A stretch of 64,000 nt of DNA from Cupriavidus gilardii (GTDB taxonomy: Bacteria; Pseudomonadota; Gammaproteobacteria; Burkholderiales; Burkholderiaceae): positions 1 through 64,000 of the forward strand of contig NZ_VZOV01000021.1 in NCBI RefSeq assembly GCF_008801915.1, read 5' to 3'. Shown here piece by piece: positions 1 to 8,167 of the stretch (position 1 is the stretch's first letter; each line of letters opens with the position of its first letter). Made by a program: the position numbers and the translations under genes. The notes beneath the pieces were generated by a model. The model ran no database searches and was not told the origin of the DNA. It was given only the letters and a program-made list of their open reading frames with translations.

Positions 1-189
1 GGCCGCAACGCGCAGTAAAATGCGCGTTTGCGTGCGACGCCCACGGCCTCGCGCACGCTCCGAACCCGGCCGCTGCCCGTCTGCAGCGGCCCGCCGAGAG
101 GATTGCATGTCCGAAGACCTGCCAACTACCGCGGTCGCCAGCGCATCGGCTGGTGCCACGGAAAAACACACGCCAATGATGCAGCAGTA
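1..189. repeat. Left copy of 189-bp direct repeat (mutS leader and first codons)
   Basis: This stretch repeats at 4316-4504 with four mismatches (135, 154, 155 and 158 against 4450, 4469, 4470 and 4473). Identity ends abruptly after the shared GCAGCAGTA at 181-189. The last 31 bases (159-189) are identical and are the best candidate for an attachment core. The repeat includes the mutS -10 element (TAAAAT, 16-21), ribosome binding site and first codons. It begins at base 1, so it may extend left of the window. Confidence 0.92.
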
Positions 190-208
190 CCTGGCCATTG
201 ATTTGTAG
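107..208 (+). pseudogene. Orphaned 5' fragment of mutS
   Basis: The frame opens with the same start codon and GAGAGGATTGC ribosome binding site as the intact mutS at 4422. It reads 29 MutS-like residues up to the shared MMQQYL, then four unrelated residues (AIDL) and a TAG stop. The stub ends before the mismatch-recognition Phe-x-Glu motif, so it cannot work as MutS. The change from MutS to unrelated sequence marks the left junction of the inserted element. Whether this or the right copy is the original host sequence cannot be decided from the window. Confidence 0.85.
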
Positions 209-244
209 CGCTAGACGTTTGGCAGCTACGCCAATACCCACGCC

Positions 245-272
245 AAAGCCCGTCTCCACGGGCTTTTCTTTT
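245..272 (+). terminator. Rho-independent terminator after the mutS stub
   Basis: AAAGCCCGT (245-253) and ACGGGCTTT (258-266) form a 9-bp stem with a CTCC loop, followed by TCTTTT. It would stop transcription entering from the orphaned mutS promoter before it reaches the repressor gene. Confidence 0.75.
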
Positions 273-424
273 GACCGCAATCGGAGGGTGGGTGTCGGCG
301 GCACGGAACAGGGTTTAGGTTTTTCACCGATTCGGTTGAATTTTGTTGCGCATGCGGTTTCGGCAGTGTAAAGTCCACATCACAAGAAAAAAATTACATG
401 CAGCAATCACGCAGCGGGGCACAG

Positions 425-820
425 ATGGCACTTACCGAATTCGGCAAGGTAGTAAGGAAGGCTCGAATCGACACGGGCCAAACGTTAATGTCGATGGCTG
501 AAGAACTTGGCGTCACCGCTTCGTTCCTTAGCGCGATGGAGACCGGCCGGAAGAAGATCAGTGAGCAATGGGTAGTGAAGATTGGCGAGTTCTTCGCAGC
601 AAAGGGAGCGAAGCTCGAGGAGTTGGACACCTTGGCAGCAGCCTCCAACGAGGTGGTCCCGGTTGACGGACTTCCGTTGCAGCAGCAGCTATTAGTGGCT
701 GGCTTTGCGAAGTCGCCCTTCACTGCGGCCGAACTGAAGGAAATCGCAGAGTTCCTTCACCACATCACTGCCCGGAAAAACAAAAAGGGGAAACATGGGG
801 CACATGTTGAAGGGGAATAG
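425..820 (+). CDS. XRE-family phage-type repressor
   Basis: This 131-residue protein has an N-terminal helix-turn-helix of the Cro/C1 type, with the recognition part in LGVTASFLSAMETGRKKIS. It is probably the repressor that keeps the element silent. I prefer the ATG at 425, because it gives the usual short lead-in (MALTEFGKVVRKARID) and follows GGGG; an in-frame ATG at 398 would add nine residues. Its 3' end overlaps the ImmA start by 26 bases, the normal arrangement of repressor and ImmA pairs, in which the peptidase cleaves or de-activates the repressor. Base composition is less GC-rich than in the flanking chromosome. Confidence 0.85.
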   Translation: MALTEFGKVVRKARIDTGQTLMSMAEELGVTASFLSAMETGRKKISEQWVVKIGEFFAAKGAKLEELDTLAAASNEVVPVDGLPLQQQLLVAGFAKSPFTAAELKEIAEFLHHITARKNKKGKHGAHVEGE

Positions 821-1295
821 GGTTCAGTTCATGAGCGGAGCTGACATCAAGGAGGTCGCGCGGAATTTCTGCCGGCTGCTTAAAGTTGACCGGTCGACGG
901 TTGGCAATTTTGCGGCCTTCCTGGAGCGTCTTAGCGTCTTCAACATCTGCCTTGACCCGGTTGATGATGAAGAGTGGCTGTGCTTCACCGAGGCTGCATG
1001 CGACCCTACGACGTTCAGGATCATGCTGCCCAATAGCACGTACGAGAAAGCATGCAAAGGCGATCACGCGGCCATCTCCACGATTTTTCATGAGATCGGC
1101 CACTTGGTCTTGGGACATCGTCCCGTGCTTCACAAGAGCAGCGGAAATCCGGTGAGGGAGGAGGACGCGGAGTGGCAAGCAGACGAATTCGCAACCTACG
1201 TCTGCAACCATATGGGACTTGTCCCATGGCAGCTGTGCTTCGATTTCAGCGCCACGCGTAAAAGGAAAAGGTCACGAACGTTGGCGCGTTCGTGA
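795..1295 (+). CDS. ImmA/IrrE-family zinc metallopeptidase
   Basis: This 166-residue protein carries HEIGHLVLGH (the HExxH zinc site) followed by EEDAEWQADEFA, which holds the third ligand region typical of the ImmA/IrrE (COG2856) family. Family members such as ImmA of ICEBs1 cleave a partner XRE repressor to induce a mobile element. The start at 795 has a GGGGA ribosome binding site and overlaps the repressor gene, which suggests translational coupling. The stop codon lies within the right arm of a perfect inverted repeat. The target is inferred from gene order. Confidence 0.88.
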   Translation: MGHMLKGNRVQFMSGADIKEVARNFCRLLKVDRSTVGNFAAFLERLSVFNICLDPVDDEEWLCFTEAACDPTTFRIMLPNSTYEKACKGDHAAISTIFHEIGHLVLGHRPVLHKSSGNPVREEDAEWQADEFATYVCNHMGLVPWQLCFDFSATRKRKRSRTLARS

Positions 1296-1298
1296 CCT
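1269..1298. repeat. 12-bp perfect inverted repeat over the immA-like stop codon
   Basis: AGGTCACGAACG and CGTTCGTGACCT flank a six-base loop (TTGGCG). The right arm contains the TGA stop of the peptidase gene. No T-run follows, so it may be a Rho-dependent or RNA-processing hairpin, or a protein-binding site. Which of these applies is unknown. Confidence 0.7.
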
Positions 1299-1376
1299 CT
1301 CGGGAAAATGCTCGGCTCAAGGGACCTCATGAGCCTCGCATCTTGGCAATACATTGGTGTAAGCAACCGAATGTTA

Positions 1377-1401
1377 GTTGACACCGTAGAACGGTGTCAA
1401 C
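1377..1401. promoter_or_regulatory. Perfect 11-bp palindrome, candidate operator
   Basis: GTTGACACCGT and ACGGTGTCAAC are separated by AGA. The palindrome lies 45 bases upstream of the 40-codon gene and within reach of the XRE/ImmA pair. Its left arm contains TTGACA, a consensus -35, but no good -10 lies 16-18 bases away. A repressor-binding site is the simplest reading. Confidence 0.5.
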
Positions 1402-1446
1402 GAGAAATGTCAAGTTTCATGTTGAGGTCGCCTTTTGGAGACTTTC

Positions 1447-1569
1447 ATGGAGAAAGGCCAAGGCGAACGCGTCATCTATCGGATGACCATCACCGTCAAG
1501 GGGCGTGTTATTCGCCGCCCTGACGGTCGGCCTTTCCGCATCGTCCTGCGAGACAAGCAGCCGAAGTGA
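1447..1569 (+). CDS. 40-residue basic hypothetical protein
   Basis: This short frame runs from an ATG with a good GGAG ribosome binding site six bases upstream to a TGA, and a terminator-like hairpin follows at once. The product (MEKGQGERVIYRMTITVKGR at its start) is strongly basic and looks like a small beta-rich protein with alternating hydrophobic residues (RMTITVKGRVI, FRIVLRDK). I do not recognise a family. Ribosome binding site, length and terminator together support a real gene. Confidence 0.5.
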   Translation: MEKGQGERVIYRMTITVKGRVIRRPDGRPFRIVLRDKQPK

Positions 1570-1579
1570 TGTGGAAAGA

Positions 1580-1604
1580 AACCGCCCCGGTCTCCGGGGC
1601 GGTT
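1580..1604 (+). terminator. GC-rich hairpin after the 40-residue gene
   Basis: AACCGCCCCGG (1580-1590) pairs with CCGGGGCGGTT (1594-1604) around a three-base loop. The following TCTGAAT is a poor T-tract, so termination may be partial and the next gene could be reached by read-through. Confidence 0.6.
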
Positions 1605-1644
1605 CTGAATGAATGCTGATCCCTATAAGGGAAAGGACCTCAAC

Positions 1645-1995
1645 ATGTTGATCGCGAGAATCGAACTCCGGGATGCGACCCGGGAGCAATACGAAGCGCT
1701 TCATGATGCAATGGCAGCATATGGATATGAGCGCACAGTTAAGGCAGACAACGGCCTTCGTTACGACCTGCCGGATGCGACCTATGTGCACCATACCTCA
1801 AATGATGCCGAAGCCGGCCACGCCGCTGCGGTGAACGCCGCATTCGGCGTCGTCGGTCCGAATCGGTACGGCGTCTTCGTCGGGCAGTACGTGCGTTCGG
1901 TCTTTACTCTTCCACCTTGGCAACCTTGGGCGGAGTGGCCCAGAACCGATGTTGCCGGCCTCGCCGGGCTTCTTGGTCTAGGCGCCCGACCGTAA
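1645..1995 (+). CDS. DUF2622 (GhoS-like) family protein
   Basis: The first half (MLIARIELRDATREQYEALH, then MAAYGYERTVKADNGLRYDLPDATY) has the layout of the DUF2622 family. That family includes GhoS, the RNase antitoxin of the type V GhoT/GhoS system, and many short phage and plasmid proteins of unknown role. The ATG at 1645 is chosen over the one at 1609 because AAGGA lies seven bases before it and it begins at the family's usual first strand. The Pro/Trp-rich tail (FTLPPWQPWAEWP) is not part of the domain. No small membrane toxin like GhoT is adjacent, so an antitoxin role is only a possibility. Confidence 0.5.
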   Translation: MLIARIELRDATREQYEALHDAMAAYGYERTVKADNGLRYDLPDATYVHHTSNDAEAGHAAAVNAAFGVVGPNRYGVFVGQYVRSVFTLPPWQPWAEWPRTDVAGLAGLLGLGARP

Positions 1996-2005
1996 TCGTG
2001 CAGAG

Positions 2006-2029
2006 ATGCCGCGCCTCAGAGCGCGGCAT
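2006..2029 (+). terminator. Hairpin terminator after the DUF2622 gene
   Basis: ATGCCGCGC (2006-2014) and GCGCGGCAT (2021-2029) form a 9-bp stem with a CTCAGA loop, 11 bases after the stop codon. The T-tract is short. Confidence 0.65.
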
Positions 2030-2047
2030 TTCACATGAGCGCACATG

Positions 2048-2067
2048 TAGTGTATATCCATACAGTA
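2048..2067. promoter_or_regulatory. LexA-type SOS box
   Basis: TAGTGTATATCCATACAGTA matches the beta/gammaproteobacterial LexA consensus TACTGTATATATATACAGTA at 17 of 20 positions, with one half-site perfect (ACAG) and the other GTGT instead of CTGT. It sits between the DUF2622 terminator and the next recognisable gene. A site of this quality in a prophage suggests that some transcript of the element responds to DNA damage. Confidence 0.6.
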
Positions 2068-2491
2068 TCCACCGAGTGCATCATAGGCAACAGCAAACTA
2101 GCCAACGACTGGTCACTCCCGTCCGCCGGCCCTCCCCGCGCGTCTCGCCGGGGGCCGGCATCCTCGCTTACGTCGGTGGCCGCAAGGTGGTCGAGGCAAT
2201 GCGGACTCTCCCCGAGCCGACGCGCACGGGGCCAGAACATACCGAAGCCGAGGTCAACCCTAATACCACGGCCGGGCCCGGATCTTCTTCGAGCGCAGGA
2301 CGGCGCCCCACCCCAAGCCTTACCACGTGTTATGGGCAGCCTACCGAGCCGAGCCTGTGCACAGCGCCTGGGCTTCCGATGATTGATGGCACGCAATGCC
2401 GCCGCCATTCGAGGGGGGGTGTGTTGCACCTGAAAGCTGCCATGATTAAGCGCTCTAGATCAGATTCCTTCAGCTAATCAATGAGGCCCTA
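2068..2491. other. No convincing gene; possible decayed phage sequence
   Basis: Open frames exist on both strands, but none has a clear ribosome binding site, a recognisable domain or plausible composition. The stretch 2120-2430 is more GC-rich than the rest of the element. One short frame near 2275-2384 encodes a protein-like segment (IFFERRTAPHPKPYHVLWAA) between two stops, which may be the remains of a gene once controlled by the SOS box at 2048. Confidence 0.4.
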
Positions 2492-2854
2492 ATGCACTAC
2501 CTATTGGAGCAGCTCAAGCGCGGCGATTCGACGGTAATTCAACAGTTTGCGCGAGCACATGATGAGTGGAACGAGATCCTTCGTGATGTCGACGCGATTT
2601 CGGTCGAAGAGCTGGCCAGTCGGCTAACGAGCGCTCAGTACACGTTTGAGGAAATTTTCGGGGACCGAGCCCCCGGGAAGGACAACATGCCTTGGAGCGG
2701 CTTTTCGCACCTATACTCCACCGCCCATGGCTTCGACGCCAATTTGGAGGCTGCCAAGAAGTTGGCCGCTGCCTTCAATGCCAGCATGTGCTCAGGCGAA
2801 GTCAAGGCCGCGGCTCTTCGTGCAGCGGCGGCATATTGGCTAGACGATGAGTAA
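2492..2854 (+). CDS. Hypothetical protein, 120 residues
   Basis: This acidic, mainly helical, soluble protein has no motif I recognise. The start has GAGG five bases upstream. Its last codons overlap an in-frame ATG of the SieB-like gene, and that gene's preferred start is 116 bases downstream, so the two are probably co-transcribed. It has a normal amino-acid composition, with a central segment containing DRAPGKDNMPWSGFSHLY. Its place in front of a superinfection-exclusion gene makes a role in phage competition possible, but that is only association. Confidence 0.65.
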   Translation: MHYLLEQLKRGDSTVIQQFARAHDEWNEILRDVDAISVEELASRLTSAQYTFEEIFGDRAPGKDNMPWSGFSHLYSTAHGFDANLEAAKKLAAAFNASMCSGEVKAAALRAAAAYWLDDE

Positions 2855-2969
2855 CATCCAACGCGGGGATAGCATCGTCTCTTTCACCATGCTGACCTCC
2901 ACGCAGCGCAGCACGCCAAACCCGCTGCTGCGGCTCGTCAATAAGCGATCACAAGGACATGAGGAAGGA

Positions 2970-3512
2970 ATGGGTATTCTGGCAGACGCAAAGGATGCGT
3001 TGAATTCTTTTGCGACCCTAGCGGCAAAGCCAATCTTTGCCATAGCGGTTGGGACAGGGCTCGCAGTCTTCCTGCCAAGCGGCGTGGTGACCCAACTCGG
3101 CATTGACAGCTTTATGGCGCAATACCGCCACTGGGTGGGCGCAGTATTCCTCATTTCTATGGCATATCTGGCAGCACACTTCCTCTGGTGGCTGGCAGGA
3201 CGCGTGTCGAAATGGTGGGAGATTGCCGAGTACGTGCGGAAGCGCAATGGATACCTCGCAACTCTGACATCTGAGGAAAAGGGGTACCTTGCTCTGTTTA
3301 TCAAGGATGGCAAGACCGCGGTGAATTTCCACTACGAAGACGGCATCGCCGGTGGACTTCGTCAAAAGAAGATGCTGTACGTGCCAACCAGGATAGGCAA
3401 TGTCCTGGACGGGCACGCACACAGCCTTCGTGACTGGGTCAGAAAGGCTGTGGCGAAGGACCCGTCAATCCTTGATGGGGCGACCCCCTATCGTCTTAAG
3501 CGCCGCTGGTAG
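2970..3512 (+). CDS. SieB-family superinfection exclusion protein
   Basis: The 180-residue product matches the SieB family (PF14163). It has a hydrophobic segment (KPIFAIAVGTGLAVFLP), then LGIDSFMAQYRHWVGAVFLISMAYLAAHF with a second membrane helix, then a cytoplasmic domain with LTSEEKGYLALFI and a final NVLDGHAHSLRDWV region. SieB of lambdoid phages is an inner-membrane protein that aborts development of some superinfecting phages. I use the ATG at 2970, preceded by GAGGAAGGA, because the membrane-proximal domain begins there. The ATG at 2847 would add 41 polar residues not expected in the family. The end overlaps the remains of a convergent spanin gene. Confidence 0.72.
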   Translation: MGILADAKDALNSFATLAAKPIFAIAVGTGLAVFLPSGVVTQLGIDSFMAQYRHWVGAVFLISMAYLAAHFLWWLAGRVSKWWEIAEYVRKRNGYLATLTSEEKGYLALFIKDGKTAVNFHYEDGIAGGLRQKKMLYVPTRIGNVLDGHAHSLRDWVRKAVAKDPSILDGATPYRLKRRW

Positions 3513-4048
3513 GTACTTGGGTCAATCATGGAATCGTACGCCCGCTCGCACGCTCGCCCAGCGAAGCGGGATCGGGCGGCATATTCAGCAAGTTCTCCCG
3601 CTCGCTGATCAAGCCGCTGAACATGACGGTAAGCACATCGAGGGGATAGCCGGCTGCTTGGCCTCCGCTGGTAGGGGAGAGATCGCCGCCGGCTCGAGTG
3701 GCGGCGACCAGGTCGGCAACTCGCTGGCGCAGCTGGCCAGCAACAGAATCAGCGGCGCGAGCATCAGCGCGCGCCTGGTCGGCTTCCTGTTTCCAGTATT
3801 GGCTAACTCCGCTTGTTCGAATAGGCGGCGCTGTTCCTCTCGACGGGCATCACCCAGCGCGCCCACCTTGGCCGCCTTTTGGAAGAGCCGTTCCTCTGCG
3901 TAGCCGCGGCGCAGTCGGTCTAGCTCCCGTCCTTGCGCCAGCCGTTCACCGTCCAGCCGGCACCGAATGCCGCGACGTGCAGCGCCACTACAGCGACCTC
4001 GCGCCCCGGCACAGTGGCCGCGGCTCGAATGGCAGTGGCCTGGATCAT
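3488..4048 (-). pseudogene. Frameshifted Rz-type i-spanin
   Basis: A start with ATGA overlap opens MIQATAIRAA, then a hydrophobic segment (VAVVALHVAAFGAGWTV) and NGWRKDG, the layout of a phage i-spanin. That frame stops at 3920. The coiled-coil part continues in a second frame (ELDRLRRGYAEERLFQ, ARREEQRRLFEQAEL) and then a third (QEADQARADARAADSVAGQL). Near 3600 it changes frame again to AGELAEYAARSRFAG. At least two frameshifts therefore break the gene. Spanins fuse inner and outer membranes at the end of phage lysis, so this is the relic of a phage lysis cassette. Confidence 0.65.
3609..3764 (-). CDS. Nested Rz1-type o-spanin lipoprotein
   Basis: This 51-residue frame lies inside the Rz relic. 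It starts MLAPLILLLASCAS, a lipoprotein signal with the lipobox cysteine at residue 12. A proline-rich mature part follows (SPPLEPAAISPLPAEAKQP), then two cysteines near the end. Length, lipobox, Pro content and embedding within Rz are typical of Rz1, the outer-membrane partner of Rz. The frame is intact although its partner is broken, so it is probably not functional. Confidence 0.62.
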   Translation of the reverse strand: MLAPLILLLASCASELPTWSPPLEPAAISPLPAEAKQPAIPSMCLPSCSAA

Positions 4049-4290
4049 CGTTCCCTCGTCGCGCAATCGGCGTACATCGTTGCAGTCTTGTCGATGTGAG
4101 CCGGTAGCGCGTCCCGGCCGGCGCCGCGCTTGAGTTCAGCGCATCGTCAATCTCGATCACACGACCAAGATCGACACGATCGAGGCTGACTTTCGGGCGC
4201 TCCGCAGGCGGATGGAACTGCGAATTACCTGAAGAGCCGAACACCGTCGGTCGCATCCCGTCGCAGCCACCATCTCGCCGAGTCACAGTT
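4045..4290 (-). pseudogene. Fragment of a phage gene upstream of the spanin
   Basis: The last codons (ALPAHIDKTATMYADCATRE) end in a TGA that overlaps the spanin ATG, as in a working phage operon. Going upstream, the frame changes near 4130 to KVSLDRVDLGRVIEIDDALN. The 5' part is lost at the right junction of the element. I cannot name the protein. Confidence 0.4.
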
Positions 4291-4315
4291 TTTCACCGAA
4301 CTCCTCTCCGTACCG

Positions 4316-4504
4316 GGCCGCAACGCGCAGTAAAATGCGCGTTTGCGTGCGACGCCCACGGCCTCGCGCACGCTCCGAACCCGGCCGCTGCCCGTCTGCA
4401 GCGGCCCGCCGAGAGGATTGCATGTCCGAAGACCTGCCAACTACCGCGGCCGCCAGCGCATCGGCTGGCACCGCGGAAAAACACACGCCAATGATGCAGC
4501 AGTA
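4316..4504. repeat. Right copy of the 189-bp direct repeat
   Basis: This copy matches bases 1-189 with four mismatches and runs without a break into the intact mutS reading frame. Position 4316 lies 15 bases before the -10 element, so the -35 region of the current mutS promoter is drawn from element sequence. This is how an element that inserts in the 5' end of a gene can restore expression of its target. Confidence 0.92.
4331..4336 (+). promoter_or_regulatory. Probable -10 element of mutS
   Basis: TAAAAT followed by GCGC is a common Burkholderiales -10. It would start transcription near 4343, with a leader of about 79 bases to the mutS ATG. No good -35 is visible at 4308-4313 (CCGTAC), in the sequence outside the repeat. 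Confidence 0.45.
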
Positions 4505-7091: not shown

Positions 7092-8167
7092 CGATGGCAA
7101 GCGCGCGCCGCCGGGCCCTGTCGTGCCGACCGCTGCCGGCCTTCGCGATGGCGGCGGCGCTGCTGGGCGCGTGGTGCGCGCACAGTGCCGCCGCCGTGCA
7201 GCCGGTCGCCGCCAAGTCGCAGGCAGCCGGCGGCAAGGCCGCCGACTCGCGCCCGGTCCGCATCGCGCTGATCGCCGACCTGCCCCAATGGCCGGATGCC
7301 GAGGCGCCGACGCAGCAGTTGCTGGACAACCTCGCGCAACGCAAGCTCGCCTTCGTGATCCATGCCGGCGGCATCAAGGGCGATACCGAGTCGTGCGCCG
7401 ATGCGATGCTGGCTGGCCGGCTGGCATTGCTCGATCAGTCGCCGCTGCCGCTGGTCTACATTCCCGGCGAGACCGACTGGGCCGAATGCGAGCAGGCGGT
7501 CAATGGCAGCTTCGATCCCGACGAGCGGCTGGCGCGGCTGCGCGAGCTGGCCTTCCCGGACGACGATTCGCTGGGCCACCGCAAGCTTCGGTTGATCCGG
7601 CAATCGGATCAGGCCAAGTTCCGCAGCTATCGCGAGAACGTTCGGTGGAACGCGGGCAAGGTACTGCTGGTCGGCATGAACGTGCCCGACGACAACAACC
7701 ACTATCGCACCGAGGCCGGCCGCAACGGCGAATTCGAGGATCGCCGCGAAGCCAACCGGCAATGGCTGGCGCGCGCGTTCTCGGTGGCCGAGCAGGAGTC
7801 GCTCGACGGCATCGTGCTGGTGATCCACGGCGACCCGCTGTTCGGCAACGGCTGGGAGAAGCGCGGCAAGCCGACGCTGCTCGACGGATTCCTGCGCCAT
7901 CGCCAGCGCGACGGCTATCTCGAGTTCAAACGGCAGCTGCGCGAGCTGGTCAGCGACTATCGTGGGCAGGTGCTGCTGATCCACAGCAGCATCGGCGGCT
8001 TCGGCATCGATACGCCGCTGCGCGATGCCAAGGGCAGGACGATCCGCAGCTTCACGCGCGTCGCGTTGCCGGTGGGCTCGCCGAAGCAATGGACCGAACT
8101 GACGATCTCGCCCGATTCGCGTTCGCTGTTCTCGGTCGCGCTGCAGGACGGCGCGGGCAAGAACTGA
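7088..8167 (+). CDS. Secreted calcineurin-like phosphoesterase-related protein
   Basis: The protein (359 residues) begins with a basic stretch and a hydrophobic signal segment ([21 protein letters not shown]) that predicts export. The mature part has the order of a metallophosphoesterase: [42 protein letters not shown] and [12 protein letters not shown]. Several metal ligands are altered (GETDW where GNHD is usual), so activity is uncertain. The start overlaps the mutS stop by four bases, so the two are translated together, but nothing else links it to repair. Confidence 0.7.

Follow-up and report, generated by a model that had tools for sequence, protein, structure and literature searches.

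A probable prophage stump at the 5' end of mutS in Cupriavidus gilardii, with the gene apparently back behind a host-type leader

The contig NZ_VZOV01000021.1 of Cupriavidus gilardii (RefSeq assembly GCF_008801915.1) begins with two copies of the start of the mismatch-repair gene mutS separated by phage-type DNA, and it is this locus, at the left end of the 64,000-nucleotide stretch analyzed here (positions 1 to 64,000, referred to as the window), that concerns us. The segment between the copies is very probably the stump of a prophage that targeted mutS, cut by a crossover with a prophage-free copy of the locus; most of the prophage appears to be gone, and mutS to stand again behind a host-type leader. 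Judged from sequence comparisons, the left half of the locus, from the prophage junction (attL) to the open reading frame (ORF) that precedes the Rz gene, is derived from a lysogen, and the right half, from a 3' fragment of hicB (hicB') to mutS, from a prophage-free locus.

The Repeat and Its Contig Setting

An earlier note, made from the sequence alone, had described the repeat and the foreign DNA within it, and both descriptions hold. Bases 1-189 and 4316-4504 are direct copies, identical at 185 of 189 positions (mismatches at 135, 154, 155 and 158) and throughout the final 31 bases, 159-189. Between them, GC content in 500-base windows is 53-65% vs 67-74% for windows wholly inside mutS, and the genes are of phage type. 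As the note proposed, the left copy is an orphaned host start; its ORF ends after 33 codons.

Base 1 of the window is the end of its contig (C21), in a 5.79 Mb genome assembled in 115 contigs. The terminal 127 bp of another contig, C25 (64,693 bp), are identical to window 1-127, which we read as an assembler k-mer overlap at a repeat. Within C25 the repeat extends leftward, 310 bp matching window 4133-4442 at 95.5% identity, and the full repeat comes to ~372 bp, made up of the hicB 3' end, the mutS leader and 28 codons. A duplication running far to the left was what the note had thought would speak against an inserted element, and in part this is what was found, the duplication reaching ~185 bp beyond the window start into the hicB 3' end. 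Between the copies, 4/100 hicB' positions differ (leaving out four junction columns), as do 10/83 of the spacer and 4/24 of 135-158, against 0/134 of the leader and 0/31 of 159-189; their divergence in hicB' and spacer is about a third of the distance between the left copy and the close relative G065. Gene conversion is not needed to account for the 134 identical leader bases, as scaling from hicB' and spacer predicts ~2.3 differences there and zero is unremarkable. A search with a 585-base mutS start matched 58 of the 60 genomes of the genus (own genome included), but a second long leader copy was present in the own genome only, other extra matches being at most 65 bases.

The Left Junction

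Comparison with relatives showed that mutS-like bases in the left copy persist to 193, and the 24-base core at 170-193 falls in the HTPMMQQ codons of mutS. The orphaned start resembles that of G065 (24/24 bases in 135-158, 126/133 in the leader). A scan of IMG/VR with the mutS-motif DNA CCNATGATGCARCARTAYYT gave 99 loci, with a mutS homolog after the motif in 66 and none in 33. In 13 of the 33, which come from 12 contigs, a site resembling GCTACGCCAAGACCTACGC begins 31-32 bp past the motif, with 0-6 mismatches; the remaining 20 are without it, and several of these resemble unrelated phage proteins in which PMMQQYL occurs. The window has this arm-type site at an offset of 32 with 2 mismatches, whereas 62 mutS-side controls (of the 66, four being too short) have at least 7, and in the 64-kb window it is the single match at up to 3 mismatches, with 0.01 expected. 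The viral loci themselves supplied the consensus, taken by eye, which makes their own scores partly circular; the window had no part in it. Because a mutS core is followed by an arm-type site at the spacing of 13 of the 33 viral loci, the left copy is to be regarded as a prophage junction, attL, and the arm-type site as a probable binding site for the integrase or an excisionase on the phage side. A tandem duplication without phage recombination was rejected, since the left junction has the core, the arm site and the phage genes of an integrating family.

A pattern scan of 399 genomes of the order matched 226, and two sites were seen (by eye) only in the own genome, G331 and G406. Three of the four sites of G331 and G406, which lie on four contigs, were inspected, and none looked attL-like: both sites of G406 lead into MutS-like codons, one of them, the second mutS-like fragment L199 (G406:C61:12492), having ~25 MutS codons from the motif and then a stop, and the inspected G331 site runs into a contig end. 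Elsewhere, the viral record IMGVR_UViG_2627853789_000002 has mutS-type att sites at 7307 (L095) and 10025 (L115), 2.7 kb apart, with a phage-like start upstream of the first; possibly these are tandem elements or an attP.

An Intact Relative and mutS-Type Integrases

An intact relative is G476 (IMGVR_UViG_3300048865_000013), a 42.5 kb prophage seated in mutS and bounded by attL on the left and attR on the right. The host mutS start in its attL and window 95-193 are 96% identical, and attL and attR both carry ACGCCGATGATGCAGCAGTACCTG, corresponding to window positions 170-193; the note's proposal of site-specific integration in the mutS 5' end through a core overlapping 159-189 is borne out. 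At both ends of 95-4134 the window is colinear with G476, the blocks at 2048-2379 (68%) and 3526-4134 (78%) following in like order; the arm site and phage genes beside attL match an intact prophage in order, and the genes between the aligned blocks differ. At attR, G476 has a phage-borne mutS start, MDKAVQEITESKQEVAGRSASRE, unlike the host start, and a 469-aa integrase frame directed away from mutS.

Eighteen of the 66 mutS-side loci are on contigs that end within MutS codons 30-106 (hand count), and 17 of these have a PF00589 integrase in the last few kb beside mutS; the eighteenth, L113, has a 455-aa ORF there that has no Pfam match. PF00589 was also matched in 41 of 48 records, chosen by hand among the 99 loci where mutS had an att-like site or an integrase-like ORF nearby. 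The G476 integrase is 52-66% identical to those of 15 of 20 mutS-end contigs tested, and the other five (L085, L089, L090, L112 and L150) have an integrase reading towards mutS, that of L112 having no BLASTP similarity to the G476 protein. At least two integrase types beside mutS, with G476 and L112 as one example of each, suggest that the same motif may have been targeted repeatedly. The away-type lies beside mutS in L083, L088, L120, L158 and others, and the towards-type ends shortly before the phage-borne start. In the genome collection, four of the best 80 of 591 mutS loci (L204, L220, L263 and L269) have an integrase 31-54% identical to that of G476 directly upstream of mutS.

In the segment itself no integrase was found among the scanned ORFs of 190-4132 (Pfam, PHROGs), nor was a recognizable attR. 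The own genome has 12 PF00589 matches, all on contigs other than that of the window, and none resembles the mutS type, similarity to such an integrase not going beyond 28% over 107 aa (E 2.4e-6). With Rz broken as well, the reading of the segment as a whole element is not supported.

The Right Boundary

In C25 the order is an inositol-monophosphatase gene (PF00459, 5.6e-72), hicA, hicB (PF07927, 1.5e-10; PF15919, 8.9e-9) and the mutS leader. The hicB fragment in the window is a second, partial hicB, with two amino-acid changes relative to that of C25 over the part they have in common and a stop just before it, and the phage homology ends at ~4134-4137, the point where hicB homology begins. In G065 the sequence runs uninterrupted from the monophosphatase gene through hicAB and the leader into mutS, 90.5% identical to C25 and 91% to the window mutS. 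Because this order exists without the insert, hicAB is best taken as a chromosomal neighbor of mutS in this clade, and hicAB as phage cargo was rejected. The congeners G031 and G033, by alignment, have neither hicAB nor an insert at mutS. One core match each was found in G065 and G031, and none in G033, where the core differs from the exact pattern; the expectation that an empty site has one copy was thus confirmed, by pattern in G065 and G031 and by alignment in G031 and G033.

Since homology to C25 runs back into hicB, the right copy has the look of chromosomal hicB'-leader-mutS DNA and not of a start brought in by the element. The earlier note was correct that this copy starts the working mutS; that the element carried it is not supported, as it is host-type DNA back into hicB and the phage-borne start of G476 is unlike that of the host. 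The hicA-hicB toxin-antitoxin pair lies at C25 63850-64483 (locus L024 7851-8484), directly upstream of the mutS leader.

A Proposed Course of Events

The anatomy of the junction shows that a mutS-targeting prophage entered mutS at the HTPMMQQ codons and cut it in two, with the host leader and ~29 codons remaining as attL. In this state mutS presumably depended on a start supplied by the phage at attR, as it does in relatives. Later, an illegitimate crossover with a copy of the locus that had no prophage, whether on imported DNA or on a sister chromosome from which the prophage had excised, would have fused phage DNA a short way upstream of Rz to the 3' end of hicB. Such an exchange would have removed the remainder of the prophage, integrase and attR included (~37 kb, taking the length of G476 as a guide), and at the same time have duplicated hicB'-leader-mutS' and returned mutS to a host-type leader. 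Sequence comparison shows where the DNA on either side of the junction comes from; one crossover of this kind would explain why most of the prophage is gone, why attR and integrase are missing and how the 372-bp direct repeat arose.

There are points that weigh against this course. The adjacency of C25 and C21 rests on the 127-bp overlap and synteny, not on reads. The crossover itself is something we infer, and imported DNA and a sister chromosome are not told apart. The accessory genes between the aligned blocks evidently differ from those of G476, and the helix-turn-helix (HTH), M78-like and SieB genes and the ORFs at 1609 and 2492 had no tblastn match in the two G476 ends. In addition, the ~4-12% divergence of the copies in hicB' and spacer makes a recent within-strain event unlikely, barring fast evolution there; an old duplication and a donor from a closely related strain would both fit. 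Polarizing the copy differences was tried as a means to separate imported DNA from a sister chromosome and was dropped, the signal being too weak: by hand count, 18 differences polarized on G065 (junction columns 1-4 and bases past 189 left out) gave 13 right-copy, 2 left-copy and 3 ambiguous changes, and setting aside positions where G031 or G033 share the right-copy base gave 8 right vs 2 left, with the spacer alignment of these two genomes doubtful as they are without hicAB.

Alternative Explanations

The phage might itself have captured the hicB'-leader-mutS start through faulty excision and brought it in as its attR, a later deletion taking the integrase and the rest. This predicts the same repeat and explains the ~5% difference between right and left copies, but it requires two unusual events, with a phage side that must end at hicB and no integrase between, and of two viral contigs compared at both ends neither has such a host leader; we regard it as very unlikely. 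Scarcely more credible, indeed a little less so, is the reading of the earlier note, in which the element is self-contained and its right end, the right copy, carries a replacement mutS start, with promoters swapped on integration and excision. Members of the family, G476 among them, do supply a new start (described in PMC5296598) and the right copy does start the working gene, but that copy is host-type back into hicB, with hicAB chromosomal in G065, and the segment is without an integrase and the phage-borne start of G476 unlike that of the host. That the assembly misjoined the phage segment or the right copy, the true locus being an empty site or a complete prophage, would suit a window that starts at a repeat-caused contig end in a 115-contig assembly, but it is the least probable explanation, since the right copy departs from C25 at 14 positions of hicB' and spacer and from the left copy at 4 positions in the codons, so that one graph path has not simply been used twice, and the junction near 4131 is without a long sequence common to its two sources.

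The Working mutS

Returning to the prophage stump, the right copy beside it opens an intact 889-aa MutS, and the empty site, produced by joining the flanks in a script, likewise encodes 889 aa. In the genome collection, from which near records may be missing, the two best named matches to this MutS are Cupriavidus proteins at 86%. Because the copies agree at all 134 leader positions and the empty site keeps the 889-aa length, gain or loss of the stump should leave the frame and promoter of mutS unchanged, and a switch of mutation rate, which the note had raised, is unlikely. Homologous recombination between the 372-bp copies could delete the stump and leave mutS intact.

Contents of the Segment

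Nine ORFs of the segment were compared with PHROGs, eight with Pfam and five with PADLOC, the last giving weak HTH- and protease-type matches alone. The features of the locus are collected in Table 1.

Table 1. Features of the mutS locus (window coordinates)
Feature	Position	Strand	Remarks
Left copy of mutS leader	1..105	+	repeat goes on into C25, where the hicB 3' end begins at ~64384
Orphaned mutS start, 33 codons then stop	107..208	+	host codons to about the core, phage DNA after
Attachment core of attL, ACGCCAATGATGCAGCAGTACCTG	170..193	+	equivalent to the stretch common to attL and attR of G476
Arm-type site GCTACGCCAATACCCACGC	225..243	+	2 mismatches to the site in viral attL loci
Terminator-like stem-loop just within the phage end	245..266	+	consensus match alone; count not above shuffles for the region
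HTH regulator (PF13560)	398..820	+	76% identical relative in phage contig L066
M78/ImmA-like metallopeptidase	795..1295	+	phrog_87 5.6e-9; PF06114 slightly below cut-off
Phage protein, function unknown (phrog_8894)	1609..1995	+	6.5e-15
SieB superinfection-exclusion-like membrane protein	2847..3512	+	PF14163 1.6e-24
Broken Rz with Rz1-like reading frame	3520..4048	-	aligns to intact relative as three pieces in three frames
Final 30 codons of phage ORF preceding Rz, cut by junction	4048..4137	-	73% identical to G476 residues 172-201
Junction, phage DNA/hicB fragment	4130..4137	.	a few bases in common at most
hicB 3' fragment and spacer	4133..4315	+	~92% identical to C25
Right copy, host-type mutS leader and first codons	4316..4504	+	feeds working gene
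Working mutS, 889 aa	4422..7091	+	ORF intact, five MutS Pfam domains

The gene order HTH-M78-Rz is the same in the 40-kb IMG/VR contig L066; no relative of the SieB protein was found in viral contigs. Terminator and promoter scans gave no excess over shuffles. With 190-4132 as query, plasmids gave no match, a search of phage records gave four with short matches each, and 19 of the 60 genomes of the genus matched (own included), the longest match outside the window being ~600 bases and most falling at the Rz end.

Relation to Known Elements

Chu et al. (2017, mBio, PMC5296598) describe mutS elements at HTPMMQQ in hundreds of Beta- and Gammaproteobacteria, which give mutS a new promoter and start; excision of one in a Vibrio makes a mutator, and a 7-kb element of Enterovibrio norvegicus showed no excision and may be degraded. 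The locus shares with the elements in that account the HTPMMQQ site, an orphaned host start at one end and phage-type content, but they have their own promoter and start and an integrase beside mutS, whereas in the window the right side of the segment is host DNA, with neither integrase nor attR. Tuanyok et al. (2008, PMC2612704) report mutS-specific recombination at a 15-bp site for the prophage GI8c of Burkholderia pseudomallei MSHR305 and for Bt-GI4 of B. thailandensis. That site, ACGCCGATGATGCAG, is window 170-184 with one base different; in their case a whole island is flanked by short direct repeats, in ours a stump by a 372-bp repeat. The earlier note knew of no described mutS element in this group; these two papers describe such elements, in Burkholderiales as well. 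Prophages are also described in the mutS-cinA region of Pseudomonas fluorescens (PMC2647930). The SpyCI, streptococcal chromosomal islands at mutL, are likewise phage-like islands at the 5' end of a mismatch-repair gene, but in another gene and phylum and with integration reversibly stopping mutL transcription (PMC4129442); beside the stump, mutS ORF and leader are intact. Closest is G476, with the same mutS attL and the Rz block (78%) and the other block (68%) in order; unlike the window it has an integrase, attR and other accessory genes.

The locus is ordinary in kind and unusual in its right boundary: in the open-access literature, the only literature searched, we found no report of mutS regaining a host leader beside a prophage stump. 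One outcome of the decay of mutS-seated prophages, then, would be that the host gene regains its own leader, and capture of its promoter need not be permanent. A survey keyed on an integrase beside mutS, as that of Chu et al. was (PMC5296598), would pass over stumps of this kind. With the arm site, ~32 bp past the core, as a guide, they could be located where no integrase remains, so that gains and losses at mutS become countable. A bolder idea, which we hold to be unlikely, is that the locus represents a route for a bacterium to take mutS back from a resident prophage while keeping the regulator pair and the SieB gene as a possible exclusion island. If so, one crossover would restore the host-type promoter and start and disarm the prophage through loss of the integrase and attR; the core in the working mutS would again be a landing site, and SieB might help guard against related phages.

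A Recurrent Stretch

The ~330 bases of window 2048-2379 recur in G476 (68%), in G031 (77%) and in the own genome on contig C38 (70%), and have no clear ORF match. Within this stretch lies TGTATATCCATACAGTA, which we take to resemble a LexA-type palindrome.

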